Shown here piece after piece: positions 3,303 through 64,000 of a stretch of DNA of 64,000 nt; the stretch's first letter is position 1; each line of letters starts with the position of its first letter. The DNA comes from Ulva prolifera (taxonomy: Eukaryota; Chlorophyta; Ulvophyceae; Ulvales; Ulvaceae): contig CM041196.1 of assembly GCA_023078555.1 (NCBI GenBank), forward strand, positions 682,001 through 746,000, read 5' to 3'. Both the position numbers and the translations under genes were made by a program. The notes under the pieces are model-generated. The model did no database searches. It was not told the origin of the DNA and saw only the letters and a list, made by a program, of their open reading frames with translations.

Positions 3303-3340
<38 letters not shown>

Positions 3341-6300: not shown

Positions 6301-6585
6301 TTAATAATGATACAGCCGCAGACACGTACCACCGGCTCTGTGTGTATTCACCCATCATCGACGGCTGCTCCGCAACTGTAGGTTGAGGTCAAGATGATGG
6401 TGGCTGCGGTGGTCAGCCGCATGCATGTAACTCTGGATGCGTGCATGGCGCACCTGCGCAGCGTGGAGGACTACGTCGCCACCACTGCCACCCACGTGAC
6501 GCTGCAGACGGAGGGCCCCACATGGCTCCGCAGGCGGCCACGCGCCGCGGCCGTTGATGCCGGCATCGCATCTGTAGCGGCGTAG
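17..6585 (+). CDS. Cytochrome P450, tandem copy A (8 exons)
   Basis: Haem-thiolate monooxygenase, probably anchored in the ER; the substrate cannot be read from sequence. Modelled exons: 17-157, 2317-2511, 2851-3046, 3459-3586, 3817-3988, 4490-4890, 5197-5418, 6382-6585 (552 aa). Every junction has GT/AG ends and the phases fit (0,0,1,0,1,0,0). Seen in order: short hydrophobic N-terminus, basic stretch and proline hinge PLAPGSFPVLGH (about residues 31-42); I-helix AGYETT (326-331); K-helix ESLR (390-393); NPDRW (445-449); haem loop FLDGPSNCIG with the ligand Cys478. The loop has Ser where most P450s have Arg two residues before Cys. Exon 4 holds a small internal repeat (GSGVFG/DSGVFE) absent from copy B. 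ATG at 17 is the only start in view and matches copy B. A further small exon between exons 5 and 6 cannot be excluded. The promoter lies left of the window. Family assignment is firm; the CYP subfamily is unknown. Confidence 0.92.
257..345. repeat. 18-bp direct repeats bracketing half of a foldback
   Basis: ATTTACCCGGGGTGTCAG occurs at 257-274 and again at 328-345. Between them lies one arm (about 283-320) of the foldback found intact at 38,154-38,231. The arrangement lies inside intron 1 of P450 copy A and looks like a degraded small mobile element with duplicated flanks. Confidence 0.5.
372..426. repeat. GC-rich hairpin repeat, copy 1
   Basis: Holds GCGCGGCTTACGCCGCGC, a 7-bp stem around TTAC, within a stretch of about 50 bp (GGCTCCTCGCAAAC...CTCGTCGC) that recurs at about 785-839. 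It is intronic and non-coding. Confidence 0.5.
498..1357. repeat. Pair of ~45-bp direct repeats in P450-A intron 1
   Basis: The stretch starting CATTCAATGTAAAGTTGACA is repeated almost perfectly at 498-543 and 1312-1357. The repeats bracket about 770 bp that include the hairpin element at 754-866. They could be the long target duplication or terminal direct repeats of an inserted element, or a simple local duplication. Confidence 0.5.
754..866. repeat. 113-nt foldback (MITE-like) element
   Basis: The outer arms AGTTTTCTGGGACGGCG (754-770) and CGCCGTCCCAGAAAACT (850-866) are perfect inverted repeats. Inside, GGAGTACACCGGTGG faces CCACCGGAGTACC, and the centre is copy 2 of the GC-rich hairpin seen at 372-426. 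The whole could fold into one long hairpin. No coding capacity. Confidence 0.6.
5778..6165 (-). mobile_element. Stacked LINE 3' ends in P450-A intron 7
   Basis: From about 5778 the sequence TACAAGGACAAAGCCGGAGG and the following ~300 bp match, with divergence, the 3' UTR that follows the LINE reading frames at 57,701-58,256 and 59,831-60,391. Two further 3' termini, each GCAGCTGTG..TTACAAGGACAAAG, follow at about 6090-6119 and 6121-6143. Read on the - strand each ends CTTTGTCCTTGTAA plus a short CA run. These are short 5'-truncated LINE tails stacked in one intron. Confidence 0.6.
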
Positions 6586-7241
6586 CAAATCCAGCAAGCG
6601 AACACGCTTCAAGAGTGAAATGATCAGACGGGGCGCTCAGGGGGTTTCCATGAGCATGCATTTGTCGCCAGGTTCTGCGGCAGCACGAGCTCGCCATTGC
6701 AGAGTGATCATAATTTGGTCGAAAGCTGAAGCCAGTAACTACATATGTCACATATGTGTCACACTGTAGAGCTGCTTGCCGCAGCTGCAAAGAGATTGCG
6801 GCCGTGAAAATGTACTGTCTTGGCATAACAGGCGCTCCCTCGAAGCTCCCTCGGGATTCTCCTGGTTATTATTATTGCTCGCGGTGATACCTGCCTCGCT
6901 CGCTTCGTCCTTGTAACAAATGTCGTGTGAATGCGAGCCGTGACGCGGTAGACACGGTGGCGACAGGCAGCACTCAGGAATCGTCGAAGATGCATCGGCA
7001 GTTCCAGCGATGGCAGGTCTGTGTGCCAGTTCGGCTCGCCACAGCTGCATCACATGGAATTCTGACATACCGTGTGTTTGATGGTGTCAAGCCATGCGGT
7101 GTCAGCGTCGCACTCACATCGAACAGCCTTTGCATACATGCCAAATTCCCAGGGCGACGGTTGCGTTGAGTCTAGGACGTTGCCACGCTTAAAGTAGCGT
7201 CATTGGCATATTTTATGTGATTTAGCCGGCGTGCTGTAGTC
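6586..7241. other. Spacer between the P450 copies
   Basis: 656 bp between the stop of copy A and the start of copy B. It must carry the 3' UTR of A and the promoter of B. A plus-strand LINE-like 3' end (about 6870-6916, ending CGTCCTTGTAACAA) lies here and includes the only nearby TGTAA (6912-6916), a chlorophyte-type poly(A) signal. No clear TATA box was found; CATATTTTATG about 35 bp before the copy B ATG is a weak candidate. Confidence 0.4.
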
Positions 7242-10200
7242 ATGCCGGTAGTCTTCTGGATTGTTTCGGGATGTGCGGTCGTGCTGCACAGATGGCACCG
7301 CAGGCGCAAAGGGAAGGACCTACACAAGATCCCAATGGCTCCAGGCAGCTTTCCCATCCTCGGCCATGTAGAAATTGCCAAGGTGATTCTCTCTCCTGCA
7401 TCTAGCTGCAGGCACCGGCTTTGCTAATCGCTAGTCCGACAGCAGCTCTTCGCGGAACGCAAATGCTTGGAGGACGATTTAGCCAGCTGACCAGTCCATG
7501 ATTACACACAGCGCCTCAACGCATTCCTCGATGCTGTAGCTAGAGGCACGGCGCCACCTGCATGCTGCATGTCACAAGGAATCTCCTCGTCGGTGCTGCT
7601 GTGCACACTGCATTCGCGAATGCCACCGCGATGTCCGTCCATGGCAAGCCTTGCTTCAGCAAAAACTTGTTCCGACGAGGAAAGGTGCAAACAGTACAAA
7701 TAGAAGGGTCTCGTTCACGTTGACTCAAGATCCACGAGCTGTCCCGGAGGATCGCGGTTCAGCTGCAGCCCAAACCTCCCACCGAGTGCAGCTGCGGCCG
7801 CGGGCGAATGTGAGATAACTCTGCTGCACAGCACACCTGACGTCTCGAATGAAGGCGCTTGCCTCTTGCTATGTTAGACGTTCAAGCGTGAGATGCCACC
7901 TGCACATCAGCGTCTGACCTGGTGGTGCTTTGCTAAAGCAATTGAGAAGCTCTGTGGCACGACAGCGCCGCATCCCGACATGGTATGCACAGTCAGACAT
8001 ATCTGCGTGATTTCTCCAGCTATCTTTAAGCCACCCCTATACGATAGCCTTGCTTGTTGGCCATCACATACTCATGCGGACATGGCATGACGAGCAGTCA
8101 GTCTCGACTCCGAATTCCCATCTGAACCAGGCATGACACGCAGCTGAATCCTGGGACATATGACCTGCATCGGTGGATGTATGCAACTCTCTCGCAAGTT
8201 TATTTTTTATTTTTTATTTAATGCAGATGTCGTTGCGCGGCTAGAGGCTACGTGTCCTTGTGTCCCTCGAGTGAGCTCAGGAGCTCACCACGTCACTTCA
8301 ACTTGCACGAATCAAGAACCCCGATGTGATACTCTGTAAGTCCCCTCTGATGGCACGCATGAAATGTAATTGTGGCCATAGAGAACTACCCCACGGCGCC
8401 CCGCCCCATGCATGTGATTGTGATCCGTGCGGGCAGCAGGCAGCCCCTCAATATGCAGTACCTGCCTGTTGCATGTATGCATTTCTGTCAGATCTTTTCG
8501 GATATCGGCCACAGTCCGTGTTTGGCGTTCCGTGACGCCCCAAGCTGTTGATGCTTGTGACATGGTAGGCACACCAGCACTGCGCCAGACTGCTCTGTCC
8601 GCGTCCTGCATTACTTCTTCAACCTCCCACGCCGCGAGGGTGCCCTGCGTGCACTTCAGCCTGTCGAAAACAGGATGTATGTGCGTTCAGGGCGCTGCAG
8701 GAGGCCGATCGATCGGGATCCCGTTCCCTCTGCCAGTCAGTGCATTCATGCAATCATCTAGCTGGCCGCTGGACCCCAGTGCTCCTACGATCCACTCTGT
8801 TTGATAGACCCTAGATAGACCAGGGATCATTTTCGAGCCCGCGCCACCATGGCCATGGCTGCTGCGCCCATTATTCATTCTGCAGCCTAGGCACCCCTCA
8901 CCTGCAACATTTAGGAATGCATGGTGCAGGTAACGGCCCTAAAACCTGTTCAGGCTGTTTGTTGGCCATGTAGCAGTGACTTGGTAGACACAACGCTCCC
9001 GTGGCCCCTCCGCCTCCAATGAACAGCGAGCTGTGCAGACACTGCGACCCGCTAGCACTGCACCATCCATTCGTCAAGGCAAATGACATTGATGTCCTCC
9101 ATCTGCAGGCGTTGGCGACGAATGAGCTGCACAAGCTGTACACAAAGTACGCCGAGGCAGCAGGGCCACAAGGCCTGATCAGGCTGTGCGTGGCCGGGGA
9201 CACGCGCCTCATCTGCACCGGCCCGGAGGCCTTTGCCGCCCTCCTGCGGAACAAGCCCTTCCTGCCGCGGCCCTCGTCCCTCTACAACGTCTTCTTCATG
9301 TTTGTGCGTTGCCTGCAGCTGCTCCCCGCCGGTGAGGCCGCCGTGGAACTGTGCTGTGCTCAGCGTTGTGTCCGGAGTCTGCATCTGTGTGAAGCCATGT
9401 CGAATCGCCTTGCAGCAGTTTTCAGGGCTGCCATCCGGAAGATAGATCTGACTGCTTGGAACTGTTCCGTGTGATCGGTCAGGGCGATGCAACCCTGGCG
9501 TGATGTCAAGCATGAGTGTCCGCAAGTCCATCACAGTGTTGCCCTGCCCGGGCGGTTGCGTTTCAAGCAATACCCTGCACCTCGCGCGGCTCCATTGCTT
9601 CGTCGTTGCGAGTCCGGGGGGACGCCCCCGGACTCGCAACAGCTCAGGGGCAGCTTGATATTGGCGGCGCCATGAGAGTGTGAGCCATCGCACATCCCCG
9701 ACTGATCTGCTGACCAGCCAGTATAGGATCACTGCCAGCCACCGGCAGCTCTTGTCAATGTGGTCACGGCATGCGACCCTGCCGTGCCGTTCCATCTTCC
9801 CTGAGGCTTCCTCAGCCACATGTTGCCCCATGCCTCCGGTACATGCATGTGTGCGTGTATCCAACGTTGTGTGTGTCTGGTGCAGGGCATAAAGGCTCAC
9901 TCGATGTTCACAACACCGGATGAGGTCGAGCATGCGCGGGTGCGGAAGCACATGATGCGGTTCTTCAATGCCGAGAACGTCGCGGCCACCATCGGCCGCC
10001 TCGAGGAGGAGATGGCCGCCTCCACCGCCGCCATCACCGCCGCCTTCTCCGCAGCCTCCGGCTCATCTGCGGCCGCCCCCGGTCCGCACCCCTATTGCGT
10101 GCGGCGTAGCTGCCAGTCGCCGTAGCCCAGCTCTTCCTGTTGATGCGCGTCTGTAGCTGTTGCCGATACAGTGCACCTGCAGAACCTATTGGCTACGAAT

Positions 10201-12788
10201 GTATCCCAGCAATGCGAATGTTGGCTGGCGTGCTGTGCTGTGCTGTGCTGTGTGCCCACGCTGTGCTGTGGTGTGCTGTGCTGTGTGTCCACGCTGTGCT
10301 GTGCTGTGCTGTGCTGTGTGTCCACGCTGTGCTGTGGTGTGCTGTGCCCTAAAGCTGTTCTGTGCCGTGCTGCGTGCTCGTCCTTGTCATGTGCTGACCT
10401 CGGGCAGTCCTTCTCCAGCTGCCAACTTGTGACTTGAATTGTCGAGAACCTGTGCGCGGGCAGGCGTGGCCACGCGCAACGCCCCATGAGTCGTCATATT
10501 TGAGTCAGCTTTGGGGTGGCTACAGGGGACTCAGCAGGCGACAGCGGTGTCTGTGCTGATGACGTGACTGCCGAGGGCGTCCTGGTGGACACTTTCAAGT
10601 TTACAGCCGTTAACATTCTCCGAGTCGTCTTCAAGGTATCCTCCCCGAGACCCCACACACGTGTATCCTTGTTGCTGGATCACCGGGTCGCCTCCAGATG
10701 CAACACAAGCGCGCTTCTGTTCTGCACAGCACTGGCCTGAAGTCACCGGTGGTTCTGAAAGGCTTCGGGTGCAGGTCTTTCTTGAGGTGGACATGATGCC
10801 TCCCCTGGACGCCCTCAACGATGCCCTGCAGCAGGCGAGCGTGGTGTCGGCTCACCCCGCTCAGTACCAGCTCCTCAAGCGGGGTCTCTACCCGGGGGCT
10901 CGCCGCTACCGCCGCAACTGGAAGGCGCTGTATGACTTCCACTACGGTGTGTGGCACGAGCTCCATTCAATGAATCTGCAGTCGTCAAAGCACTGAGCAT
11001 CCGGACTCCATGCGGACAGGCTGTCTCGGCAACTCTGCATACATTTCCTGCCGCAATGACTTGGTGCCGTCGCAGCTTGCAGTAGAGACCGGCAGGGACG
11101 CGTGCTCAACCAGCTGTTGCTGCCATGGGATTCACCAAGTTGTTTGCAATGCGGCATAACTTGCTTGCAATCGAGCCCCGCGGTTCAAGCGCCACGAGAA
11201 AAAATGCATGGGGCAAGTCAGAACCCGATGGACAGTGACCACTCTGTGTGCCACGGTTTGTGGACGCCGCTGTGAGTTGTCGATTTCCACTTCATCAATC
11301 CTTGCTCATGTACGTGGAGCCCTGGCTACAGGCTCATACCCTGCATCCCTACTAGCAGTCACGGCTCATGAGGCGCCGTCCATGCAGAGCTGGCGGAGCG
11401 GATCTTTGCAAAGCCGCCGCCGGGTGACAGCACCGCCTTCTGGGCCACCGTACACAACGCCTTCCCCGACGCGATGACCGACGAATCTCAGCGCCAGGCG
11501 GCCATGTCCAACCTGTCGTTTGTGTACGCCGCGGGCTACGAGACGACCGCAAACGCGACACGCCACACGCTCGCCGCGCTCGCCATCGACCAGGACTCGC
11601 AGGAGGCCCTCGTGGAGGAGCTGCGGGACGCCGGCCTCCTCGCCACCCCTGACAACCCCTCTCCCCCGGCGATCACCGCCGAGGCCCTCGCCGGCCTGAC
11701 CGTGCTGGACGCTGTCTGCCACGAGAGCCTCCGCGTCTTCACGCCGGCGCCGAGTGGCGGGATCAGGGTTCTGACAAAGGACACTGACGTGCGCATCTGC
11801 TTGAGCCAGCCTCCGATGCTCCTGCACATGCATGATGCCCAGGCGCTTACGGCGAGTCCGCTCGGAGCCGGGTTCTTGAGCGGCGGTGCACGTTAAACCC
11901 ATGTGACTGCCTATGTTGTCATCTATGCATGCTGTAAATGCATTTCGTGTGGGCTACCTGTATTGTCCCATGCAACTGGGCCCAGTCAGCTGGGCGGACA
12001 GTATGAAGTCTGACTGTTCATCGCCGATGCAGGTTTGTGGCTACCGTGTTCCCAAGGGCACGACTGTGATGTTCCCAGCGTGGGCTCTGCACCACAATCG
12101 CCATGTTTGGGGCGAAGACGCTCTACAGTGGCAGCCCGATCGGTGGCTACAGGGGGGATCTGTGGCGGCCACGAAGAAGGCGCCGGACGGCCATCCCCGC
12201 TTCCTGCCGTTCCTCGACGGCCCCTCCAACTGCATCGGCCAACACCTCGCACTGGTGCGCTGCAGATGAACGCTCCACATGGGCATGGCCCACTGCATAA
12301 CTGCTGCATGGGGCACACGTACCATGCGTTACCGGTACTGACCCCCGGCCATTGCAGACATGCCGGCAGCTGCTTCCTGAAATTTCCGATCACCCTCCTC
12401 TGTGCAACGGTCGGGATTATTTTTTTGTCCATGCGGGCTTGCCGGACGTAAGCATACCTTTTCGCGCACAGCTTCTTGCAAGCCTCGCATGGGCAGCGGC
12501 CGTCCGCGCTACCGGAGCAAAGTACACTGTCACGGCTCCACAAGACCGTCTACTAACATGCATCGATTTGTCACATGTGCCTTTGCTCATCCCAGGCGGC
12601 CGTGGCTGCAGGTGGAGATGAAGATGATGGTGGCGGCGGTGGTCAGCCGCATGCATGTTACCCTCGACGCCCGAATGGCGCACCTGCGCAGCGTGGAAGA
12701 CTACGTGGCCACCACCGCCACGCGCCTGACGCTGCAGACGGAAGGCCCCACGTGGCTCCGCATGCGGCCACACACCGCGGCCACGTGA
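7242..12788 (+). CDS. Cytochrome P450, tandem copy B (8 exons)
   Basis: Close paralogue of copy A, same predicted haem monooxygenase role. Exons: 7242-7382, 9109-9303, 9886-10081, 10526-10635, 10775-10946, 11388-11788, 12033-12254, 12612-12788 (537 aa). Six of eight exons have exactly the length of their copy A partner; exon 4 is 18 nt shorter and exon 8 is 27 nt shorter. Motifs: APGSFPILGH hinge, AAGYETT I-helix (GYETT near 321-325), ESLR (384-387), QPDRW, and FLDGPSNCIG with Cys472, again with Ser in the usual Arg position. An in-frame TGA at 7218-7220 sits just upstream of the ATG, supporting this start. Introns are unrelated in sequence to those of copy A, so the duplication is old or the introns turn over fast. 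All exons are open, so both copies look functional. Confidence 0.92.
9605..9640. repeat. 16-bp perfect hairpin in P450-B intron 2
   Basis: GTTGCGAGTCCGGGGG and its exact reverse complement are separated by 4 nt. It resembles a terminator hairpin, but it lies inside an intron of a nuclear gene, so an inserted small repeat is likelier. Confidence 0.6.
10231..10350 (+). repeat. GCTGT minisatellite in P450-B intron 3
   Basis: Runs of GTGCTGTGCTGTGCTGTG are interrupted by CCCACGCTGTG or TCCACGCTGTG about every 40-50 bp. Reading frames across it are low-complexity Cys/Val/Ala and not genes. Confidence 0.8.
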
Positions 12789-42155: not shown

Positions 42156-45100
42156 TCAGCGCCGGATAACATTAGACTCTGCACAGGTATCGCACAGGTA
42201 TCACATTGCGGGTCAGAGCTGGTACAATATTGAATTTATTCCCCAAAGATAAGTGGAATGTCAAAGGTGAGAGTCCATGAGCAACAGCGCTTCGTAGCAG
42301 AATGGAGCGCGCTGTATTGTGTTGGGATCTCATGGGCTGTCACATAATATTGGCTGCCAGTGTGACACAGTGTGACACCAGACACAAAATGTGTGGTTGA
42401 GCTCTTAGCACGGTTGCGCCTAATCGACAGGGTGTATGATAGCACCGGTGCAGGTTTATGTTCCTACAAATATCCCGCTTCAGTCCTTAGCGACAGGGGT
42501 AGCTGCATTCGGACGGCGCCCTAGCATCAGTTCACCGGCACGTGGTCTAACACGGTGATCATTGCAACTCTGCACGCGGACAACCAGTCCATTCATGCAG
42601 GCCAAATCAAGACGCCTACGATGCTGCTGAAACGCATTGTGAGAGCGCACTGTGTAGCCTGCACTGTGATGAATAAATCCTGCGCCGGCACTCCGGTCAA
42701 AGACAGGACACGTTGCCACGAGGGGTGCATGCGCATAGCACGCTTCAGGCAGTGCGGGGCATCAAATGTTATAAAGTGAATGGCATCTGGACGACCTATC
42801 CACCGCCGCCATGACGTTGCATGCGGAGCGGAACAAGTGACTTTGACATCTATACAATCACTCCAGCTTGTACATTCTTTCCATCGTGACGACAGCTGTG
42901 AACTAGCGATGCCTTCAGAACGGGGGCATCGCTCAGCATCTACCAGCAGCGATCAGACGGTGGTACACACAGGCACAGATAGCAACTTGGCGGCGCAAAT
43001 AGCACTAGTACTAGACTTTCTACGCTGCCCTTCTGCCCGTGCTGCCGCCTGTGCAGCGTCAAGGTCCCTCACAATTGTGGCAAGTGCTGCAACACGTAAA
43101 TTCTCAGCTTGCTAGCATCAGTTCACCGCTGCATAGCTATGCAGCGGTAAGACGTTGGTCCGAGGGTCCCGCATTCATGTAGGCTAGCCTACATGAATGC
43201 GGGACCCTCGGACCAACGTCTTATCACCTACACTGCGTGCATGCGGGACCCTCGGACCAACATCTGATCACCTCTACATGCAGTGTAGGTGATAAGACGT
43301 GAGGCCAAGGTCCTCGCAGGCATGCAAGACTCCCAGCGCACCTGTAGCCACAAATTGCACAGACCCCAAGAATACACACCGGTGATCTCAAACTGGCGGC
43401 AGACGACGGCGAAGCGGTTGTTGTCTACGCGGCTGCACTTTTCATTGCGGATGCCTTCGTCCGGTGAGGGGGCGGCACCGTCATCGCCATAGTAGGTGTC
43501 GAAGCCCTGCGGGAAGTCGCAGTGCAAGAGGCGGTCCTCCTTGCCCGCGCACACCACCTGTAGCCATATATCAAGTCTAAGCATACAGGTGTACTCCGAG
43601 AGTCTGCACAGCACCCTAGTCTGCTAGCAGCGCTTAAGGGGGTGCTCCACTACATAGCTATAGCATGTGCTATATATATAGACACATAGCTCACAGCACT
43701 GATGTCTACATCCGCAGCTCCTTCGGAAGTCAATGGTGGTTTCTAGAATTGGGTTACCATGTGAAGTATCCACAACTTGAAGACCGGGTCCGATTCGCGA
43801 ATCGCGTGCATCAAATCGTGACCGCGCACACTCGATTGCATAATGGTCTCATTCTCTAGCCGGGAAACCAACGCCTACGACTTGCAGATCAGTGTCCACA
43901 ATGCATGCTCTCTGAACACGTTGCGGAAGCAATGTGGCCGCACCGCCGGAGTGCCTCGAGGCTCCAATGCCTGGTTGTCACGAAAAATGCACACATATGA
44001 GGATGCCTTGAAGGTAGCACAACCGTAGAACAGAGGTGACCAATTCTCCATACCAAAGCATGTAGCTGACAATGTTGAATACTACAGCATTGGCCCAAGC
44101 TGCTGACGTGCATTGCCGTTGTGATGTTCCAAACAGGTCTGCGTTTCCACCTACATGTATAGGGGTGCTGCGCAAGGGCAGGTGCCTCACCGTCGTGACC
44201 CAGACCAGGCCGGCCTCATCATCATAGTCATTGTCCTGGCTGCCATATGCATCTCTGACCTCGTCCACATCCATGACCCCACCAAAGGGGAAGCCAAGGT
44301 GCCGGCACACAACCTGCGCGTCGAGCATAAACTCCTCTGCTCTCGTATAGAAGAGGTCGCTGCAGATGCGGCCCCACCGGCCGTCATGGCAGATTTCGAC
44401 ACCCCCGATGTGGACGTCATCGCAGAGTGCGGTTGCGGCGGTAGTGCCGTTGAGGGGCACGGGGCGACGTAGCCTTCAGACGGGTCCGTGTTGGCGGTGT
44501 CAGAAAGGCTATCCTTCGTACAGGTCAGACACGCAGTCTTACGTCAGGTCAGGTCAGGAGGCCAGCATCTCATACCTACTGCGTACAGTGGTAGAACCGG
44601 AGAGATGCTGAGGGAGAGACAGGATACTGCTAGTACCGTGCAACAGTGAGAATAATGGTTACAGCTCTCTGTGTGCACAGCCATATATGCACACTGAATA
44701 GTCAAGATTACGGCCGGAGATCCTCGCAGGATCTCCCTCACTACTCCGGGACAATCCTACTGGCGGCTTACCCTGCACCTGATCCGCAGACCGATCGTGC
44801 ATGGGTGCACCTGTCACCACGCTGCTGCACGCAGGCGCATGCATTGTGACAAGCGGGAGACGTGCAGCCTGTACACAAGACGCATGTGGTGTCACGGGCC
44901 CAGGCTGAGCCATTTGTGGCGAGCCTGAAATACAGTCTACAAGTACACAACGTCTCCTGCTATGATGCAGAATCCGACATCCACTCAGTCCACAAAAACC
45001 CTTGCTGATGAGTCCAGACGGCAGCTGAGAGCGCACCAGAGGGATTTGTGCACACGAGCGCGACGGCACCGACACCAACAGTATAGTCATCGCCATACCC

Positions 45101-45432
45101 ATCCACCGCAAACTCGATGTCGCAGTCCGTCAAAACCTCCTCTGAGCTATCGCACGAGACACGGCTCACACCGAAAGGTTGCATGTCATCCGCAGGTAGC
45201 GCAGAGGTGGCTCCAGCGAGGAGTTGCGCGCCGGTAGCGTAGCCGAGCTAGCGGCAGGCCACGAGCGCGCCGCGGCGGCCGAGGTCCTTGCCAAAGCGGC
45301 CCTCGTCGATGATGGACCAGAAGCCGTTGATGAGAACCTCGAGCTCGAGGTGGCCGTACTCCCAGGCACCGTCTGGGGTTAACCACAACGTTGTGCTGCC
45401 GCCCACCAGCCGCACCATGCCGGTGTCATCAC
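42156..45432 (-). pseudogene. SRCR gene end, pseudogene copy of the 61.5-63.6 kb gene
   Basis: Exons right to left: 45,432-45,037 (one SRCR), about 44,477-44,191 and 43,557-43,380 (a split SRCR), 42,178-42,156 (last 7 codons, ESNVIRR and TGA). The layout matches the intact copy at 61,536-63,583. Lesions: TAG at 45,248-45,250 in place of the Gln codon of ACRQLGY, and a net 1-nt deletion near 44,462-44,476 relative to the intact copy, which shifts the frame at the start of the second exon. The first domain (GGSTTLWLTPDGAWEYGHLE) lacks its first Cys, as in the paralogues. The 5' part is absent; the unit stops before the LINE at 46,091. Not expected to make a full protein. Confidence 0.75.
43148..43301. 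repeat. Nested perfect palindromes
   Basis: 43,148-43,223 is a 76-nt perfect inverted repeat without a loop, centred on GGCTAGCC. Immediately beyond, TTATCACCTACACTGC (about 43,221-43,236) and GCAGTGTAGGTGATAA (about 43,281-43,297) form a second inverted pair enclosing a third copy of GCGGGACCCTCGGACCAAC. A smaller hairpin, CCGCTGCATAGCTATGCAGCGG, lies just left (about 43,126-43,147). Confidence 0.8.
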
Positions 45433-46090
45433 CTGCATGAAACTTGCACCTCAGACGACCGCTGCGGTGCTCTGACGCGGTGATCTTGCCCTTGCATGCA
45501 TGTACAGTTACCCAGGTGGCAGAGAGACCAGAGACGCTGCAGCGCTGGGCAAAGTGATCACCGGCGCAGAGATTCATGTATCTCTGCAGTGCCTCATGTG
45601 CAGGTCGATCCCTGGCCATGGCAAGCAACGTTAACTACCGATTGTGTATCTCACAATGAATTTGACAGCAGACCATTGTGAGTGCGTCGTGTATACACAC
45701 GGTCATTGCCTCAACAAGCACGCCTTGCCACTCCCTAGCAGCAGGCGCCTAGGCGCATGTAAAGCCTCCCACCCAACACCCACAAGCACGCTGCTTGTCT
45801 GACGCACACGGTAGTTGTTGGGAATGGCCCCTCGCACAGAGTGTACCATGCCTGTGGTGTATACCATCAGTGTTGACTGGTCGGGTAGCGCAGGGGGCTG
45901 GCACCGTAGCGAGCGTACAGAAACAACAGGAGAGCATGACAGGAGTAACAATGCGGCACACTATGGGGTCGTGGTCTGTTGCTGGTCGTGTCGATTGACC
46001 TCGTCCACGGCATGGCAGTCGAGCCCCCGGAGGCTCGGCGCTTGGCATTTGATAATACTTGTTAGGCCAAATCTGCAATGCTAGGGCCCC
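45433..46090. other. Spacer before the LINE, nothing recognised
   Basis: About 650 bp between the SRCR pseudogene and the LINE. No further SRCR exon is visible upstream of the pseudogene on the - strand, although the intact paralogue appears to continue. Confidence 0.4.
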
Positions 46091-47534
46091 ATGGGCAAGC
46101 CGAAGCGGAAGGAGCCGTCAAGGGCAAAGCTGAGCGACCTGAACCGCCAGCACGCTTCGCAGTCGCCCGTGCGACCTAGCCTATTGATTACAGACCAACG
46201 TAGCATCCTAGATACTAATGAAGTTGTTAACTGTCACCGCGCGGGTCTCCACAGCCCAAGCGCCGGCGCGCAGCACCTGCCAGCGGGACAGCTACCAAGG
46301 CTCATCTCTCTGCAGATACAAGCAAACAGGTAAAATCGGCGCTGAATGTGGTGCCTGGTGAGACTCAGCTCGCCACGGCTGCCCCTCAGCAGCCGCCAGC
46401 CACCAGCAACGACCAGCACGGCACTGCACGGTGCCACCATCCACCCCCGCCCGCTTCCGCCGACACCCCTTCTCCGCCTCTTCCCCCACCTCCTGGCCTC
46501 GCAGCAACCAAGCAGTCTGCTACCCGCCGGCCACATCGCCAAGCCGCAGCGGCCGCCGGCGCTCCCCCCCCTGCGCAGGCCAGTGGGGGCACGGGCGGCA
46601 GCGCCAAGCAGCAACGTGCCCGGCGGGGCGGTAAGAAGAAAGGCAAGGGACGGGGAGCAGGTAGCCAGTCGCAGCGGGCGGGCCCCCGCAGACAGGCCGG
46701 GCTCCGTGCGGCTGCATCGGCCCCGCCAGTGCAGCGGGCCAACGCGGCCCCACGGCTGCGCCTGCCGCAGCATGTCCCCCCAGCCGCCCGGCTGGGGTGG
46801 GCCGAGTGGTGCACAAGGGCGTGGGAGCTGGTGGCCGACGCGTGCACGCATGCGCGCGGCGACAGCGCGCGAGAGGAGGTTGTTGCCGCCTTCGAGGAGC
46901 TCATGCGCCTGCCCATGCGCCTGCTAGCGTACAGCAGGGGGCGGCGCTCTGGGAAAGCGGCGGTAGGGCGGTGCCGCGACTACGCCCTCGGGCTGCCCGT
47001 GGAGATGTGGGAGGACACGCCGCCCGGCCGCTGGCCCGGGAGGCGCAAAGCTCCCATGTCTGCAGATCAGCTGCAGGCGCAACACATCGACAGATGCTTT
47101 CGCACCAAGCGCTCCATTCACAAAGCTGGCCGCGGATTGCAGGATGGCAAGCCCGCAGATGCACGGTCCCCGGAGGTCCGAGCCGGTCTGCGCGCATTGT
47201 TCCCGCCAGCAGATCCGCCGGCCCCTCTGGAGCCGAACCCGGATGTCCCCGCTCTGTGCCTGACACGGGAGGCGCTGGTGGCGGCGGTGGCCGCCGTGAG
47301 CGCACACCATCGAGGGTCATCGGCCGGCCCGTCCGGCTGGACGTTCGAGATGATCTGCGCAGCATGCCAATCCTCGGACGCAGCCACCGACGCGCTGCTG
47401 GCGGTCGTCAACCACATGCTGTCCGGCATGCTGCCACGGGAGACGTTCCTACTGGACGGGCTCCTCATCGGCCTGGAGAAGCCGGACGGTGGCACGCGGC
47501 CGATCGCGGTGGGGGAGACCTGGTACCGGCCGCA
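46091..47534 (+). mobile_element. LINE retrotransposon, N-terminal and early RT region, truncated
   Basis: An ATG at 46,091 opens a basic N-terminus (MGKPKRKEPSRAKLSDL). A second frame, about 46,348-47,534, encodes a Pro/Ala-rich stretch, a basic block (RRGGKKKGKGRG), and then the conserved run-up to reverse transcriptase: SSAGPSGWTFEMI, LLIGLEKPDGGTRPIAVGE and WYR. That region is typical of non-LTR retrotransposons of green algae. The catalytic palm is missing because the reading frame ends where the giant palindrome begins. The frame change near 46,335 may be an intron or a lesion. Confidence 0.75.
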
Positions 47535-48438
47535 ATTGGCATTTCAATACTCGCAAAGCACCTTGACACTTCACCACAGCTAGTCTACACGAAACACTGT
47601 ATACAATATCAAACTTAAGTATGCCGTACAGAGAGCATGCGTGGTGAGTGTGCGTGTCCATTTTCGATAGAGACACGCAGCCGACGAGCTACATTGTTGC
47701 ATGCTGACAACGACAGCGGCATTCTGGGAGATACAAGATCAGCAGAAACATAACATGTGCCTTTCATAACTTGGTTACTCTGTCGGTTACGGGGCTGTGA
47801 TTGACGGCGATGATGTTTGACTTCCGACGAAACCATCACCGTGAAACTTCATCCCACGATTGGCAGCTACTAAAAATATGGATCACAACCGATGCGCAGT
47901 TTGATATGAGTTGCTAGTAATCATAACTCAGGATGCTGAGAGACCGTGTGGAACTCGGGCAGTTCTTTAACATCGAAAGGTCATGTGCGCTTTTGCGCCG
48001 CAACATTGCACGGATCTTTGCCAATCTGTTATACGTAGGAATCATACCTTTCTCTGTAGTTTTCTGGCTGAAGATTGGCTGCCTAGGCAACAGCCAAGAG
48101 TTCGTGTTGCTGCTGCTACCAAACGTGTAAGTTCGCACGGACAATGAGCCCTACGCCTGCAGTGCGCCACATTGTACTTGCTTATCAACAATGTGTAAAG
48201 AAGTGACATGAGTACCGAAGCCGTATAGACATGGTCGCTGCGCATGAAACTTCGGGAACCGGCCCTGCAGAACGTATACCGCAGGCATAAGAATACTTGC
48301 CATCACTGCGCACATGCGATGACCACAATGTCAGTGTTGGTACACGTCAGCGCTCATAAGAGTTTCTTCTGCGCAGTACAACGTTGTCTGCACGCTTCAG
48401 CGATGAGTAGCTGGGACAGAGCGGTGTATGCATGCGTA

Positions 48439-49776
48439 CTGGGTGCCGCAAAAACATAGCAGTTGCCGCGATCGACATTCTGCAATGATCACCCGGACGT
48501 TACGCATCCAGACGTGGGCAAGATATCGGCAAGGCCTATCCCGAACTATTTGTGCTCCCGCTTGAACAATGCTCGAGTGTACTGCTTGATTTTGCTCAGC
48601 TGCGGTAACGCATTTCGTGGCGTGCGGGGAAACTCACGGTTTGAACGTGACGCCTGAAAAGCTACTTTATGCAGTAAGATCCACCTGCAGCCGCAAGGCA
48701 GCCTTGACTGCGGCGTAACAACCGATGAATTTCGACAACGTGATCGTGTCAGCCGCACTTGAGCTGCTGTCATGACAACGTGTTGCTCAATACATGTGGC
48801 ATGCATGGGCCACCTGCCATATGCTCAGGGAAATCAGTATGGTCACCATTACAGTGTGGCAGTCAACATTCCACTTCCCGAGGCACCAGGAATATGTGTT
48901 GGCACTTGGCTGACAGAGTTGGAGGCAGCGCAGGGCTGGCATGCCTCACCCATGGCCTTGAACAAGGGCTACCTTTGAGTGGCTGTATCTCTCTGCTGGA
49001 GCCTGCAGTGACGAAAAAGCAGTTTTTTGGGCCTAGACAGTGCCTAGTACCTTTTCCTTAGCGCCAGCTAAGTGGGAGGATCCAGGGAACCAAAAATTAC
49101 CGCAATCCGAGAAGTATGCACTGAGATATGGATTGTTGAGTGCACTTGGTCTTGGGCCCCACTTGGAGCTGCATCGAGAGCCCGACTACACGAGCACGCA
49201 GATCTGCGGCTGCGTCGCGACGAGGCGCGCTCCTGCGCAGATGATTAGACCTTTATCTATAGATGCTCTGCGATCAGTTTTGTCTCCTGAATTCTTGGAT
49301 GTGTTACGTGCTGCATGTCCTTCCGTGACCCATGCATGTGGGGACCTTCAGTCCGGTTGAGATGCACCACGTCAGCTCGACACTGAGACTCGGACGTCCA
49401 CCGCTACGCCGACAAATGTCCCAGCATGGATTCCTGGCACGGCTGTCGGTATCCTCGCGGCGCTGGTAGTATAGTCTACGCCGCCGCCGGCTGTAAGGGC
49501 GTATCTCTGACGAGGCCGATGATTCACGTGCTATGTTTTTGCGGGAGCCTGTGCGTTGGGCTGCCAAGCATCACACAACGTTGGCTGCCGCCATATAAAC
49601 GAGCCAACGTACTCATATATATTCAAAAATCTGATCCCGAGAGTCTTGACGCACATGCATGAGCCATGCCAGCTTTACCGCTCGAGCAGCGAGTCGCTAT
49701 TCAGCAGCTCCACCGCCTGGGAATCGCACACGGCAAGATTGCGAAGGAACTCGTCGTGCGTTTTTGCGGGAGCCTG
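48439..49776. mobile_element. Tc1/mariner-like insertion nested in the left arm
   Basis: Left end CTGGGTGCCGCAAAAAC and right end GTTTTTGCGGGAGCCTG are imperfect 17-bp inverted repeats. TA flanks both sides (48,437-48,438 and 49,777-49,778). The opposite palindrome arm shows the uninterrupted site GCATGCG-TA-TGTGGCC (TA at 54,147-54,148), proving an insertion of 1,338 bp with TA duplication. A second, better matching right end (23 bp, TGCTATGTTTTTGCGGGAGC...) lies inside at 49,529-49,551, so the element is compound or rearranged. Only a short transposase-like fragment was recognised. Confidence 0.8.
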
Positions 49777-49848
49777 TACGTGGCCACCAGGGCAGCCAAC
49801 GTGACAACGGTGAGAGACATGACAGATGGGCCTCGCAGCAGGCATTGA
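49666..49848 (+). pseudogene. Transposase helix-turn-helix fragment
   Basis: 60-codon frame from ATG. Residues about 5-31 (LEQRVAIQQLHRLG, IAHGKIAKELVV) have the pattern of the N-terminal HTH of Tc1/mariner and related transposases: an EQR start, a helix, a glycine turn, then IAKxL. The frame then runs straight into the terminal inverted repeat and out of the element, so the catalytic DDE domain is absent. It binds no function of its own as it stands; it supports the element's identity. Confidence 0.45.
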
Positions 49849-50289
49849 ACCACATAGGTATCATCAGGCAGCCCCATCAGAGCGACACTGCCCCTACATG
49901 CTTAACAATCCGGTGTCATGATGTTGCAACGCAGATTCACAGGAACACATTGAGGCCTAGGATGTGGCCACAAAGTCTAGAAGCTTCGTCACAACTATGC
50001 ACTGCACATTAGCTTAACATCCATATTGGCCCTACCAAAGGCATGACATAGAACAGTGAGCCGGTCTTGCATGCGATCAGGATTGGAGTCAACTAGTGCC
50101 TTATGCATTAAAGATTAAGCTTTTTAGGCTTGAGGAGGTTTAATCAGCCCCATCACTGATGGCATGACCAAGCACTGGGGTGCCCGCATACAGTGTTGAG
50201 CTCCTAGGGCACGGAGGAGACTCCGTACACGCCAGACGCAACAACACTGCGCTGAGCGATTCTCACAGTTAAGCGCAGTTTTGTGTTGG

Positions 50290-50935
50290 CATACCCTCTG
50301 TCTTCGCTCGCAGTGCAGAGGGCGTGGCACCGATCATGTATACGTCGGGGGCAGCAGCGCTGTGGTGACAGTGTCTTTGCTGGCATACCCTCTGTCTTCG
50401 CTCGCAGTGCAGAGGGCGTGGCACCGAATATGCACACGTTGGGGGCAGCAGCGCTGTGGTGACAGTGTCTTTGCTGGCATGCCCTCTGTCTCCGCTCGCA
50501 GTTCAAAGGGCGTGGCACCAAACATGCACACATTGAGGGCAGCAGCACTGTGGTGACAGTGTCTTTGCTGGAATGCCCTCTGTCTTCGCTCGCAGTGCAG
50601 AGGGCGTGGCACCGATCATGTATCCGTCGGGGGCAGCAGCACTGTGGTGACAGTGGCTTTGTTGGCATACCCTCTGTCTTCGCTCGCAGTGCAGAGGGCG
50701 TGGCACCGATCATGTATACGTCGGGGGCAGCAGCGCTGTGGTGACAGTGTCTTTGCTGGCATACCCTCTGTCTTCGCTCGCAGTGCAGAGGGCGTGGCAC
50801 CGAATATGCACACGTTGGGGGCAGCAGCGCTGTGGTGACAGTGTCTTTGCTGGAATGCCATCTGTCTCCACTCGCAGTTCAAAGGGCGTGGCACCGAACA
50901 TGCACACATTGGGGGCAGCAGCACTGCAACGAGGC
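50290..50935 (+). repeat. 94-bp tandem repeat, about seven copies
   Basis: CCCTCTG starts recur at 50,294, 50,388, 50,482 and onward every 94 bp. Each unit has a hairpin (CCCTCTG...CAGAGGG, varied in some copies to CCCTCTG...CAAAGGG), then GCGTGGCACCGA, then GGGGGCAGCAGC. Neighbouring units alternate in small variants, suggesting amplification of two-unit blocks. Frames across it repeat CERRQR-type peptides and are not genes. Confidence 0.9.
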
Positions 50936-50939
50936 TGGT

Positions 50940-51365
50940 GACTAGGTGGAAGCATCTCTGCTGGCCAGAATACCAGCGGCTGCATGTGATCACATCACTG
51001 ACATCCACAAGAGGGCTATCTCAGCGCACCGACAGGCACGAGCACTGGCATCACCAGCCCAGCTGTACTCGTGGCCAGTTAGCGTGACAACCCCTTTGCA
51101 AAGAGGCTGGTAAATAGTGTGAAGCATCTCTGCTGGCCAGAATAACAGCGGCTGCATGTGATCACATCACTGACATCCACAGGAAGGCTATCTGAGCACA
51201 CCGTCAGGCACGAGCACTGGCATCACCAGCCCAGCTGTACTGGTGGCCAGTTAGCGTGACAATCCCTTTGCAAAGAGGCTGGTAAATAGTGTTAACCATC
51301 TCTGCTGGCCAGAATACCAGCGGCTGCATGTGATCACATCACTGACATCCACAGGAGGGCTATCT
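50940..51365 (+). repeat. ~172-bp tandem repeat, about 2.5 copies
   Basis: CTCTGCTGGCCAGAATA recurs near 50,955, 51,127 and 51,299, followed each time by GCGGCTGCATGTGATCACAT. The right arm has about 1.3 copies (53,225-53,460). Confidence 0.8.
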
Positions 51366-52268
51366 CAGCACACCGACAGGCATGGGCACTTGCATCATCT
51401 GCACAGCCGTCCTCGTGTCCAGCCGGTGTTTCCATAACCACATGGCCAGGGAGACTGACCTCCAAAGCGGCCGCAGTGGCACTTTCATTTAGTACGAAGA
51501 GCACAGGCATCACTTGCCGTAAGCAGTGTCGCAAGACGTCTGCAACTGTCCGTAGCCGTAGACGCTCGCGCCTGTGGTTCATACAGTTTCCAAAGTCGCC
51601 ATTGCAGATTGGTGAAGCATGATGTGCCCGAGCTTCCAAATGTCATTGTAGCAGCGATGGTTTGCCCTGCTCGTCCCTGAACACCGTTGCAGCTGTACAT
51701 TGCCGATTTTCTCATACACATTATTCGCGCTGTAGAATCAGATCGTGGCGCGATCTGTGCGTGTGGGGCCTATTCATAGACCAGATGCTCCCGTAGCCCG
51801 CTTCGTGATGGCGCCTGATGAGCTCCCCTAGAGACAACACGTCATAAAACTTTGAACAAATTGGTAAACATGTTCAAAACAGGTTTAATTTTGTATCACT
51901 GACGGATTAGCTTCTAGCGGTGACACGCAGCCGTCCTAAGCTCTGCCCAAGTGTGTCCTCAGGCTGATTGACCTCCAGAAAGGCCGCGAGTCTCCAGAGC
52001 CCAAGTGAAGCCTGAATGTAACCAAATAAGTTCCTGTGAAAGGATATACACGCTTTTATCGCGCTGTTCGTGAGCATCGTAACAGCGCTGGCCGACCGAG
52101 TCATCCTCGAACACAGGCACAGTGCAACTGCGTCCGTAGACCACAACGAACCGGATAAAGCATATCATGCGTCAATATCATATTTCACATGGTCATTTCG
52201 GTTGAAATCACATCAAAAGGCGACTGTTTCTGCTCTGTCCTATCCGCCCTCGACAGGCCCGCCCTTGT

Positions 52269-52295
52269 CCGTCTGTACACGTCCTGGCTCATGTT
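52269..52295. repeat. Central loop of the palindrome
   Basis: 27 nt between GCCCTTGT (ending 52,268) and ACAAGGGC (starting 52,296). On the - strand it reads ACATGAGCCAGGACGTGTAC, nearly the same as 56,055-56,074, so the centre may itself be a small repeat shared with that region. Confidence 0.7.
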
Positions 52296-55037
52296 ACAAG
52301 GGCGGGCCTGACAAGGGCGGATAGGTCGGAGCAGAAACAGTCGCCTTTTGATGTGATTTCAACCGAAATGACCATGTTCAATATGATATTGACGCATGAT
52401 ATGCTTTATCCGGTTCGTTGTGGTCTACGGACGCAGTTGCACTGTGCCTGTCTTCGAGGATGACTCGGTCGGCCAGCGCTGTTACGATGCTCACGAACAG
52501 CGCGATAAAAGCGTGTATATCCTTTCACGGGAACATATTTGGTTACATTCAGGCTTAACTTGGGCTCTGGAGACTCGCGGCCTTTCTGGAGGTCAATCAG
52601 CCTGAGGACACACTTGGGCAGAGCTTAGGACGGCTGCGTGTCACCGCTAGAAGCTAATCCGTCAGTGATACAAAATTAAACCTACCATGAACATGTTTAC
52701 CAATTTGCTCAAAGTTTTATGACGTGTTGTCTCTAGCGGAGCTCATCATGCGCCATCGCGAAGCGGGCTACTGGAGCATCTGGTCTATGAACAGGCCCCA
52801 CACGCACAGATCGCGCCACGATCTGATTCTACAGCGCAAATTATATGTATGTGAAAATCGGCAATATACGGCTGCAACGGTGTTCAGGGACGAGCAGGGC
52901 AAACCATCGCTGCTACATAGCCATTTGGAAGCTCGGGCACATCATGCTTCACCAATCTGCAATGGAGATTTTGGAAACTGTATGAACCACAGGCGCGAGC
53001 GTCTACGGCTACGGACAGTTGCAGACTTCTTACGACACTGCTTGCGGCAAGTGATGCCTGTGCTCTTCGTACTAAATGAGAGTGCCACTGCGGGCGCTTT
53101 GGAGATCAGTCCCCCTGGCCATGTGGTTATGGAAACACCGGCTGGACACGAGGACGGCTGTGCAGATGATGCAAGTGCTTGTCGGTGTGCTGAGATAGCC
53201 CTCCTGTGGATGTCAGTGATGTGATCACATGCAGCCGCTGGTATTCTGGCCAGCAGAGATGCTTCACACGATTTACCAGCCTCTTTGCAAAGGAGTTGTC
53301 ACGCTAACTGGCCACGAGTACAGCTGGGCTGGTGATGCCAGTGCTCGTGCCTGACAGTGTGCTGAGATAGCCCTCCTGTGGATGTCAGTGATGTGATCAC
53401 ATGCAGCCACTGGCACTCTGGCCAGCAGAGATGCTTCCACCTAGTAACCAGCCTCGTTGCAGCGCTGCTGCCCCCAATGTTAGCATGTTCGGTGTCACGC
53501 CCTCTGCACTGCGAGGTAAGACAGAGGGCATGCCAGCAAAGACACTGTCACCACAGCACTGCTGCCCCCGACGTGTGCACGTTCGGTGCCACGCCCTCTG
53601 CACTGCGTGTGAAGGCAGAGGGTATGCCAACACAGAATCGCGCAGCACTGTGAGAATCGCTCAGCGCAGTGTTGTTGCGTCTGGCGTGTACGGAGTCTCC
53701 TCGAGGAGTCTCCTCAGATCTGTGCCCTCAACACTGTATGCGGGCACCCCTGCCCATTTGCATCAGTGCTTGGTCATGATGGGACTGATTAAACCTCCTC
53801 AAGCCTAAAAAGCTCAATCTTTAATGCACAAGGCACTGGTTGACTCCAATCCTGATCGCATGCAAGATCGGCTCACTGCTCTATGTCATGCCTTTGGTAG
53901 GGCCAATATGGATGTTAAGCTAATGTGCAGTGCATAGTTGTGACGAAGACTTTGTGGCCACATCCTAGGCCTCAATGTGTTCCTGTGAATCTGCGTTGCA
54001 ACATCATGCCACCGGATTGTTAAGCATTTATGGGCAGTGTCGCTCTGATGGGGCTGCCGGATGATACCTATGTGGTTCAATGCCTGCTGCGAGGCCCGTC
54101 TGTCATGTGTCTCACTGTTGTCACGTTGGCTGCCCTGGTGGCCACATACGCATGCATACTCCGCTCTGCCCCAGCTACTCATCGCTGCAGCGTGCACACA
54201 ACTTTGTACTGCGCAGAAGAAACTCTTATCAGCGCTGACGTGTACCAACACTGACATCATGGTCATCGCATGTGCGCAGTGATGGCACGTATTCTTATGC
54301 CTGCGGTACGTTCTGGAGGGCCGGTTCCCGAAGTTTCATGCGCAGCGACCATGTCTATACGGCTTCGGTACTCATGTCACTTGTTTACACATCGTTGATA
54401 AGCAAGTACAATGTGGCTCACTGTAGGTGTAGGGCTCGTTGTCCGTGCGAACTTACACGTTTGTTAGCAGCAGCAACACGACCGCTTGGCTGCTGCCTAG
54501 GCAGCCAATCTTCCGCCAGAAAACAACAGAGAAAGGTATGATTCCTACGTGTAACAGATTGACACAGATTCGTGCAATGTTGTGGCGCAAAAGCGCACAT
54601 GGCCTTGCGATGTTAACGAACTGCCCGAGTTCCACACGGTCTCTCAGCATCCTGATTTGTGATTACTAGCAACTCATATCAAACTGCGCATCGGTTGTGA
54701 TCCATGTGTTTAGTAGCTGCCAATCGTGGGATGAAGTTTCACGCTGATGGTTTCGTCGGAAGTCAAACATCATCGCCGTCAATCATAGCCCCGTAGCCGA
54801 CGGAGTAACCACGTAATGAATGGCACATGCTATGTTTCTGCTGATCTTGTATCTCCCAGCATGCCTCTATCGTTGTCAGCATGCAACAATGTAGCTCGTC
54901 GGCTGCATGTCTCCATCGAAAATGGACACGCACACTCACCACGCATGCTCTCAGTAAGTTTCATATTGTATACAGTGTTTCGTGTAGACTAGCTGTGGTG
55001 AAGTGTCAAGGTGTTTTGCGAGTATTGAAATGCCAAT
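52296..55037 (-). repeat. Palindrome right arm
   Basis: 2.74 kb, the reverse complement of the left arm without the nested element and with fewer tandem repeats. It therefore gives the pre-insertion state of the arm. Confidence 0.85.
52724..53224 (+). CDS. Unrecognised 166-codon frame in the right arm
   Basis: Open frame in the inner right arm; the region ASPICNGDFGNCMNHRRERL and VMETPAGHEDGCADDAS is repeated in the left arm on the - strand (51,334-51,639) with few changes, but the left copy is split between two frames. No known motif. The first codon is not ATG at 52,724 (TTG), so the earliest ATG start is 52,748. It may be a relic coding sequence of the element or simply an open stretch. 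Confidence 0.2.
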   Translation: MLSLAELIMRHREAGYWSIWSMNRPHTHRSRHDLILQRKLYVCENRQYTAATVFRDEQGKPSLLHSHLEARAHHASPICNGDFGNCMNHRRERLRLRTVADFLRHCLRQVMPVLFVLNESATAGALEISPPGHVVMETPAGHEDGCADDASACRCAEIALLWMSVM

Positions 55038-61237
<6,200 letters not shown>

Positions 61238-61535: not shown

Positions 61536-63583
61536 TCAGCGCCGGATGACATCAGACTCTGCACACATCTCACAGCCTGCGTCAGAGACCCACCTGTGCT
61601 TCAACACTGCATAGGAGTGCATGGTACGAGTGCCGAAAAATCACCAGCAGCACCGGAAGCGACACACAACGAACAGCAGAATCCCAAAATGAAACAGTCT
61701 AGAGCGCGGCGTGTTGGCGCTTGCAGCGATTCACACGTGCTTCAACACTGAATACAACAAGAGTGTAGGATGGTGCGGTGCTCTCAATGGGGCCCTTTCC
61801 AGCAATCTCTCAAGCGCTGCATGCTTAAGGTCTCGGGCACGCGTGAACCTGATCTGCATGAAGGCTTCTCCCGGCATCTGCGGCATCCACAGGCTGAAAA
61901 GACGCGCACCGGTAATCTCAAACTGGCGGCAGACAACGCTGAGGCGGTTGTTGTCAATGCGTCTGCAGCGGGCGCGGCCGATGCCTTCGTCTGGAGGCGG
62001 GGGCGCTGTTGAGGGGAGGCCGTAGTAATAGTCGTAGTTGTTGTAGGAGTCAAAGTCCTCCGGGAAGCCGCACTCCAGGATGCGGTCCTCCTTGCCCGTG
62101 CACACCAACTGCAGCCGTGTGTCCGCACATGTCTGCTTTACAATGCAAATGCCCTCCCGACAGCGTGACCTTCCAATGAGGTAGGATCACTGTTCTAGAC
62201 ATCCTTTCATCGGTAGCTCCTCCCAAACGCATTCCCGGTCGCTAGGAGTCTGTAACAGTATGAAGGACACAGAGAACTAGCAATTGACCTCTGCGCCACA
62301 TCGTGACGTCACTGCCAGCAGTGCTTCATGCTGTCATCTTCTCCCCAGTATCTGAGGGAATCCATTTCATTCACATGTTTCATCCGCAGTACGCGTTCTG
62401 AGAACAATGACAATGCAAGTGGGATGCATGTCTTATTGACACAAGTGCATGCAACGCCTGGTCGATCCGCAGGCTTGACACAAATAGGAGATACCATGCA
62501 GCATACGAAGCCGCACCGATGTGGCCCAGACAAGCTCAGGTGCACGCTCATCATTAAATCGGTAATCCTGGCCATCGTACGCGTTCCTGATCTCATCCGC
62601 GTCCATGACTCCACCAAAGCGGAAGCCAAGCTGCCGGCAGATGACCTGCGCGTCCAGCGTGAACTCCTCCGGGGATGAACTGAAGCGATCATTGCAGATT
62701 CGGCCCCAGCGGCCGTCGTGAAAGATTTCGACCCCCCCGAAGTGCACGTCATCGCATGCCGCGGTCGGGGAGGTGGTGCCGTTGAGGGGCACGAGGCGGA
62801 GGTCGCCTTCAGTTGGGGATGTGTTGGCCGGGGCTTCGCAGCCTGCATGCAAGCAGCGCACTGTGTTCCAGGGAAAGGCGGAGCGACCAGTAGCACGGCC
62901 ATGCATGCAACCCAACTGTTGGGCCCAACAGCATGCAGTCCGACATGCATGAACTGTAACATGGTCGCCACCGGCAACCACTGCGACGCGGTACTTCATA
63001 CAGGCAATGTAAAACAACACAATTATGGAGCCTTAATGAATACGGCCTTGCAATACAATCCATTGCGAGTGCTGAAGCACAGACGCCCTCCCGGGTCGCC
63101 CGCACGTGCCTCAGAAGTTCTGAGAATGTCCATGCAGAGACCGACACACAGCGTACTATACACACTGTGTCCGATGAGCCCACAAAGCGGCTTGAAGCGC
63201 ACCAGAGGGGTTGCTGCACACGAGCGCGACAGCGCCAACACCGCTGGAGTAGTCATAGCCATATCCATCCATCGAGAACTCAATGTCGCAGTCAGTCAGC
63301 ATGTCTTCCGTGCCGTCGCATGAGACGCTGCGGATGCCGACTGGCGGGGGGTCCGCCACAGGAAGTGCGGAGGTGCGGCCGGCGAGGAGCTGCGCGCCGG
63401 TGGCGTAGCCGAGCTGGCGGCAGGCAACGAGGGCGCCACGGCGGCCGAGGTCCTCACCGCCGAAACGGCCCTCATCGATGATCGACCAGAAGCCGTTGAC
63501 AAGGACCTCGATGCGGCCGTACTCCCAGGCTCCTCCAGGCTCAGCGTTGCCGCCTACCAGCCGCACATCGCCTGTGTCATCAT
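61536..63583 (-). CDS. SRCR protein, C-terminal part (continues beyond the window)
   Basis: Exons right to left: 63,583-63,203 (complete SRCR), 62,842-62,517 and 62,108-61,910 (one SRCR split by a phase-0 intron), 61,558-61,536 (ESDVIRR, TGA). Phases 1,0,1 agree and give at least 309 residues. The first exon enters in phase 1, so more exons lie right of 63,583, probably outside the window. Domain one (NGFWSIIDEGRF ... GALVACRQLGYATG ... VSCDGTEDMLTDC) lacks the first canonical Cys. Domain two has DDVHFGGVEIFHDGRWGRIC and ends VVCRQFEITG. Both correspond in order to domains 7 and 8 of the 20-29 kb gene. The micro-exon is conserved in the pseudogene at 42,156. Probably secreted or surface-exposed. 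No lesion seen. Confidence 0.85.
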
Positions 63584-64000
63584 CTGCATGCCTAGCCAAC
63601 ATCAGACATATCTGACAATCTGCCGGGATGTCTATACAGTGATCTTGCCATGACGGTTGCGCAACTAGTCGGAAAACTGGCGATGCTTTTCTAGATCTGT
63701 GAGGGGTGACAGGAAACTGCAATGCATAGCATCGACGATTCGCGGTGTGACGTCACAGGGACGCTGAGATAGACGCACTGAGTCCAGGAGGCCGATGGTG
63801 CGTGCACTCAACTGTGGACACGGCACAAACTGCTCAAAGCGGCATCAACCAAGAGGGGTGAGTCACCATGACTGCAGAAAGCGCTGCCACTATTCCACAA
63901 ACCCGCCAGCTGGCACATGCATATATGAATGGGGGGGGGAGGGAGCTTTGAGTGGAGGTGCGCACCCCCTGACGAGCAGAAGAGGCGGAGGGAGGCCCCA
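63584..64000. other. Intron/upstream of the partial SRCR gene, nothing recognised
   Basis: Expected to be the intron before the first visible exon of the - strand SRCR gene. No SRCR coding similarity was found. A short G run lies near 63,931. Confidence 0.4.

Follow-up and report, generated by a model that had tools for sequence, protein, structure and literature searches.

The locus described here lies in a 64,000-nucleotide stretch of the genome of the green alga Ulva prolifera, referred to below as the window (C1:682001-746000; genome of 88.9 Mb in 44 contigs), in which positions 47535-55037 form a long imperfect inverted repeat. A preliminary description made from the letters of the sequence had recognized two reverse-complement arms in a long imperfect palindrome, and self-BLAST of the window together with a repeat finder confirmed them. 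Among the self-BLAST matches listed, an outer arm pair (47535-48438 / 55037-54147) is 93% identical, a middle arm pair (49776-50456 / 54149-53460) is 90% identical, and the segment 51097-53461 matches its own reverse at 94%; the E-value is 0 for all three arm matches, which excludes chance. The left arm is 4735 bp in length and the right arm, counted from 52270, is 2768 bp, and the repeat finder placed an asymmetric 27-nt centre at 52269-52295. The internal tandem repeats that had also been described were found in both arms, as direct-repeat families with units of 94 bp and 172 bp. The full extent of the feature reaches 56081, past 55037. It is almost certainly the product of a nested self-insertion, in which a DNA transposon with terminal inverted repeats (TIRs) entered an older copy of the same family (Table 1).

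Table 1. Features at the locus, by position in the window.
Feature	Positions	Strand	Basis or detail
Reverse-transcriptase element fragment (first part), adjoining the left copy where its left end is broken	46231..47529	+	comparison with two other copies
Left, older copy, broken at 47535 with loss of ~1.0 kb from its left end; another transposon lies within it at 48440-49775	47535..52269	+	comparison with other copies
GTAC target-site duplication to the left of the 1336-bp insert	48436..48439		flank comparison
Third transposon-like insert, 1336 bp, imperfect ends TGGGTGCCGCAAAAAC / GTTTTTGCGGGAGCCT	48440..49775		site empty in other copies
GTAC target-site duplication to the right of the 1336-bp insert	49776..49779		flank comparison
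Tandem arrays of left copy	50190..51440	+	94-bp-spaced, 7 members; 172-bp, 3 members (families D1, D2)
Target-site duplication TC, left side	52268..52269		flank comparison
Right, younger copy, complete end to end, 3785 bp	52270..56054	-	both family termini; near-identity to C2:8.64M
Right TIR of nested copy, CGTCTGTAC on + strand	52270..52278	-	terminus pattern
Tandem arrays of right copy	53170..53636	-	94-bp-spaced, 2 members; 172-bp, 2 members (families D3, D4)
Left TIR of nested copy, GTACAGACG on + strand	56046..56054	-	terminus pattern
Target-site duplication TC, right side	56055..56056		flank comparison
Last 25 bp of left copy (right terminus ...GTGTACAGACG), separated from the rest by the nested copy	56057..56081	+	terminus pattern and restored-site comparison

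Members of the family begin and end with CGTCTGTAC...GTACAGACG, a TIR of 9 bp, and the right end of the family reads ...CATGAGCCAGGACGTGTACAGACG. At the two junctions of the nested copy the sequence is ...CCCTTGTC / CGTCTGTAC... and ...GTACAGACG / TCACATGAGCC..., and matches to the terminus pattern fall at 52270-52297 and 56054-56081, where none is expected by chance. Removal of the right copy and one TC joins 52210-52269 to 56057-56081 and yields 85 bp of family right end, which shows 3 differences to the right end of C3:5.837M (L037) and 5 to that of C7:1.049M. This restored end indicates that the right copy inserted into the right terminus of the left copy. What had been taken for a 27-nt centre of the palindrome is the right copy's own terminus and not a spacer, as the match at 52270-52297 indicates.

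The same ends recur across the genome, in searches whose counts are all lower bounds. At three or fewer mismatches, the left-end pattern matched 26 places and the right-end pattern 29, and the corresponding backwards control patterns matched 1 and 0. Identical 2-bp flanks were found at 15 of the 16 loci having both ends, with duplications of varied sequence (AT 4, GT 3, TA 2, AG 2, GC 1, and TC or its complement GA 3). Given the dinucleotide make-up of the window, 2-bp flanks match by chance with a probability of 0.068 per locus, so that at least 15 matches in 16 have P ~4e-17, a value that is optimistic because 12 of these loci had served to derive the duplication rule; all four loci scored after the rule was set (L034, L037, C9:2.52M, and C4:8.26M) also match. 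The count leaves unscored four loci that lack an end, C9:1.74M, C9:2.12M, C3:4.765M, and C1:9.31M (the far end of the last being in another stretch), and it does not extend to L027, L030-L033, L035, and L036, whose sequence in the comparison covered the right end. The 16 two-ended members range from 1.8 to 12.1 kb in length, and the differences stem from the size of the tandem arrays, alternative interiors, and nested copia-type retrotransposons (two copies).

The preliminary description had assigned the two arms common element ends, represented by the 20-bp edge ATTGGCATTTCAATACTCGC (ATTGGC...). A search for this edge returned 17 places at two or fewer mismatches (15 exact, 2 of the 17 in the window), and the edge, which had been proposed as a query in paired inverted orientation, proved to be a truncation point rather than a terminus. 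Homology continues upstream of ATTGGC in all 15 copies outside the window, as well as in the right-hand window copy, and in 12 of the 15 it reaches ~1 kb farther, to CGTCTGTACCTACCCCCGCCC; no left end was found for the other three (C9:1.74M, C9:2.12M, and C3:4.765M). The ATTGGC... edge is the break point of the left copy and not an element end, and the right copy runs on to 56054. These comparisons took in the sequence around each of the 15 outer-end places outside the window, and around 11 places (9 nearly full, 2 partial) that the central query matched with no outer end close by. That the sequence is present elsewhere in the genome, as had been supposed, was borne out by the 906-bp outer segment, with 17 matching places, and by the central 1748 bp, which aligns with almost the full length of an arm at 23 other places. 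At all 23, both halves of the central query match one place on opposite strands, so the other copies are single-armed. The right flanks of two of the copies, L020 and L021 (C9:1.74M and C9:2.12M), are alike for ~100 bases and then diverge, which places both in a duplicated segment or repeat.

Comparison of the two window copies with the rest of the family indicates that they are not sisters. Identity of the right copy to C2:8.64M is 99.9% in the left-end region (17 rows) and 100% in the right-end region (24 rows), compared with 94.4% and 95.4% to the left copy. The left-end region of the left copy is 94.0-95.1% identical to 15 of the 16 other rows and 91.3% identical to one. Trees for either region grouped the two window copies in 0% of 200 bootstraps. 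These relationships fit separate insertions of the two copies, that of the right copy being recent, and speak against duplication in place.

The left copy carries further changes. The reverse-transcriptase fragment beside it has 44 genome matches including itself, more than 20 of them nearly full-length, and Pfam assigned no family to the fragment. In two other copies of this retroelement the gene extends past the fragment's cut point, and in a copy outside the window the open frame goes on with a YLDD motif. When 1.5 kb of another copy was used to seek the remainder of the retroelement in the window, the only match was at 47399-47529. Because the retroelement runs past the cut point in the two other copies, the left edge at 47535 is a break; perhaps a single deletion took both the remainder of the retroelement and the left end of the left copy. 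Where the left copy carries the 1336-bp insert, all 15 copies outside the window, like the right copy, have an empty site, and the query 48440-49776 has 42 genome matches, the window one included. Four relatives of this insert lie at C2:6.49-6.52M, spaced 5954-5956 bp apart, as if within a larger tandem unit. The arms are unequal because of the loss of the left end, the 1336-bp insert, and the differing numbers of 94-bp and 172-bp units.

In the sequence of events proposed, an older plus-strand copy would have taken in a younger minus-strand copy of its own family at 25-27 bp from its right end, with duplication of TC. Insertion at the very end and in the opposite orientation leaves the two bodies facing tail to tail, so that they read as a palindrome. 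The termini, the duplications, the restored empty site, and the relationships of the copies can be read from the sequence itself; movement would presumably have been by cut-and-paste, through transposase supplied in trans. Further events on the left copy would include the loss of ~1 kb at its left end beside the cut-off retroelement, the insertion of the 1336-bp transposon, and changes in the arrays, and the manner and timing of the left-end loss are likewise conjectural. The mechanism is ordinary, a transposon entering its own kind, and the product is striking.

Other origins can be envisaged for such a structure. The long inverted arms, internal tandem repeats, and short centre resemble a Foldback/Galileo-type element whose arms are its own terminal inverted repeats, which is how the preliminary description had read it. 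This origin is highly improbable, given that the other copies are single-armed (23/23), the supposed terminus is internal in 15/15 copies outside the window, and no further copy was seen with a two-armed structure, shared outer ends, and duplications. The complete single copy at 52270-56054 has no inverted repeat longer than 30 nt, and those listed for L034 (25 of 33 pairs) are internal, the longest being a local hairpin of 82 nt; no long inverted repeat among them joins the ends of either member. A single copy with only a 9-bp TIR and no long inverted arms is not Foldback/Galileo-like, and the target duplication is 2 bp. The alternative that had been offered, a one-off inverted duplication arising locally from a single transposon copy, or else a product of repair, would account for two inverted copies lying head-on with a short centre. 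It is very unlikely as well, since the arms are different family members, ~5-6% apart in both regions compared, with the right copy's closest relative on another contig, and since the junction is an exact insertion marked by a 2-bp duplication, with the displaced 25 bp lying beyond it; on this reading, a copy from another contig would have had to replace the sequence all along the right copy.

Certain points weigh against nested insertion. The flanks of C7:1.049M, 1 of the 16 two-ended loci, do not match; the left copy lacks its left end, so its own target duplication cannot be scored; no transposase was recognized in the family; and the structure is known from the assembled sequence alone. 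The last point, together with the difficulty of assembling long inverted repeats, would also favour an assembly artefact joining two separate loci. An artefact of this kind is exceedingly improbable, because the arms are 5-6% apart and have private features (the 1336-bp insert and the array sizes), and because an exact duplication and a displaced terminus at the junction are not expected from a misjoin.

The family comprises two kinds of member, the window kind and a longer kind with another interior, which have in common a 123-bp left end and a ~1.2-kb right end. Longer members read end to end measure 8977 bp and 8806 bp, and L031 and L033 match the former at 99.9% or more over 5.0 kb, so these longer members probably moved recently. 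Eleven matched stretches at 8 places correspond to a 276-amino-acid piece of the frames of the longer members, and by coordinates each place lies within or next to a family member; at one, C1:3.98M, the right family end was not found. A second protein piece of these members has an additional open-frame relative, 41% identical, at C3:4829454. Two family copies, L011 and L013, harbour nested copia-type retrotransposons (RVT_2 hits), and the long interiors of C2:8.64M and C3:45k contain nested retrotransposons of this type rather than a DNA transposase.

The preliminary description had noted DNA-transposon sequence without a recognized transposase, and this held for the frames scanned. None was recognized, of the P superfamily borne by complete Foldback/Galileo copies or of any other, in 28 of the 39 open frames (75 amino acids or longer) listed for the C9:2.52M member, where introns could hide one and the best hit was to DUF6381 (1.8e-4, below the curated cut-off). 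Five open frames from C1:9.29-9.32M, a 29-kb stretch whose middle 9.3 kb lay outside the sequence scanned, likewise gave none. That stretch (L025/L026, C1:9285923-9315199) runs 29 kb from a left family end to a damaged right one, with flanks compatible with GC, and its middle could hold further genes. Genome searches for the KDZ transposase of Kyakuja-Dileera-Zisupton elements (PF18758), the Transposase_21 of CACTA/EnSpm (PF02992), and the Plavaka transposase (PF18759) gave no match, and as 14/14 control genomes were silent for each, they make no statement on absence. The family is unnamed in the literature searched, in which the terminal sequence did not serve as a query, so no claim is made that it is unpublished. 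It might represent an undescribed lineage of DNA transposons, characterized by the ends CGTCTGTAC/GTACAGACG, 2-bp duplications of free sequence, the shared 123-bp left and ~1.2-kb right ends, and alternative interiors, whose longer members (8.8 and 9.0 kb) encode a transposase missed by all Pfam models; this proposal is speculative and on balance unlikely. If it were true, the window would hold a natural double-Ds-like structure of that lineage.

Elsewhere in the window, the region 57139-61236 contains extended runs of the GT dinucleotide and a direct duplication of 1.8 kb whose copies are 98% identical (57139-58951 / 59269-61086). Piecewise matches of 76-89% at a spacing of 6-7 kb in 30-12782 (e.g., 4468-4906 / 11366-11804) are perhaps an old tandem duplication, and 43377-45439 and 61907-63590 form a diverged direct duplicate (71-78%). 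Frames at 43.2-44.5 kb resemble, by eye, scavenger-receptor cysteine-rich domains.

The analysis reduces a seemingly exotic palindrome to an ordinary case of one transposon nested in another. It also provides the true ends of the family, which are needed for any repeat annotation of this genome, and cautions that outer edges common to both arms of a palindrome are not necessarily element termini, one edge here being a truncation.

Among known systems, Foldback/Galileo elements are superficially alike in their long inverted arms and internal tandem repeats. Galileo is reported to have long, internally repetitive terminal repeats and 7-bp duplications in most copies (PMC3573991), whereas single copies of the window family have a 9-bp TIR and duplications of 2 bp. 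By duplication length the family could stand near the CMCT clade (CACTA/EnSpm-Mirage-Chapaev-Transib), although its termini differ from those reported there, and it is left unassigned. Duplications in this clade are reported as 2-5 bp, with 2 bp for PlavakaA and 2-3 bp for PlavakaB, and the termini as mostly CA..TG, with TGT..ACA in PlavakaA and CATCA..TGATG in PlavakaB (PMC12730594). Plavaka agrees with the window family in the 2-bp duplication and differs from its termini, CGTCTG..CAGACG; the CAC..GTG termini of CACTA/EnSpm differ from these as well.

The double Ds of maize consists of two Ds copies in inverted orientation. This derivative of the Ac/Ds system (hAT) has the same arrangement as the locus, one transposon copy inside another of its kind, and the nested copy here likewise has its own TC/TC duplication, with the outer end displaced to the far side. 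The outer copy in the window differs in lacking its left end. Autointegration likewise brings a transposon into DNA of its own kind, for want of self-avoidance; it targets the same excised molecule and gives circles or inversions, whereas the copy in the window entered a different, older copy. Ac/Ds elements have 11-bp TIRs and 8-bp duplications (PMC3260210), and the window family, with its 9-bp ends CGTCTGTAC, 2-bp duplications, and other termini, does not belong with them. By analogy with nested Ds copies in maize (PMC3260210) and with alternative transposition (PMC8225341), it is plausible that the locus behaves as a fragile site, and the nested structure could be a source of local instability, like such copies in maize.

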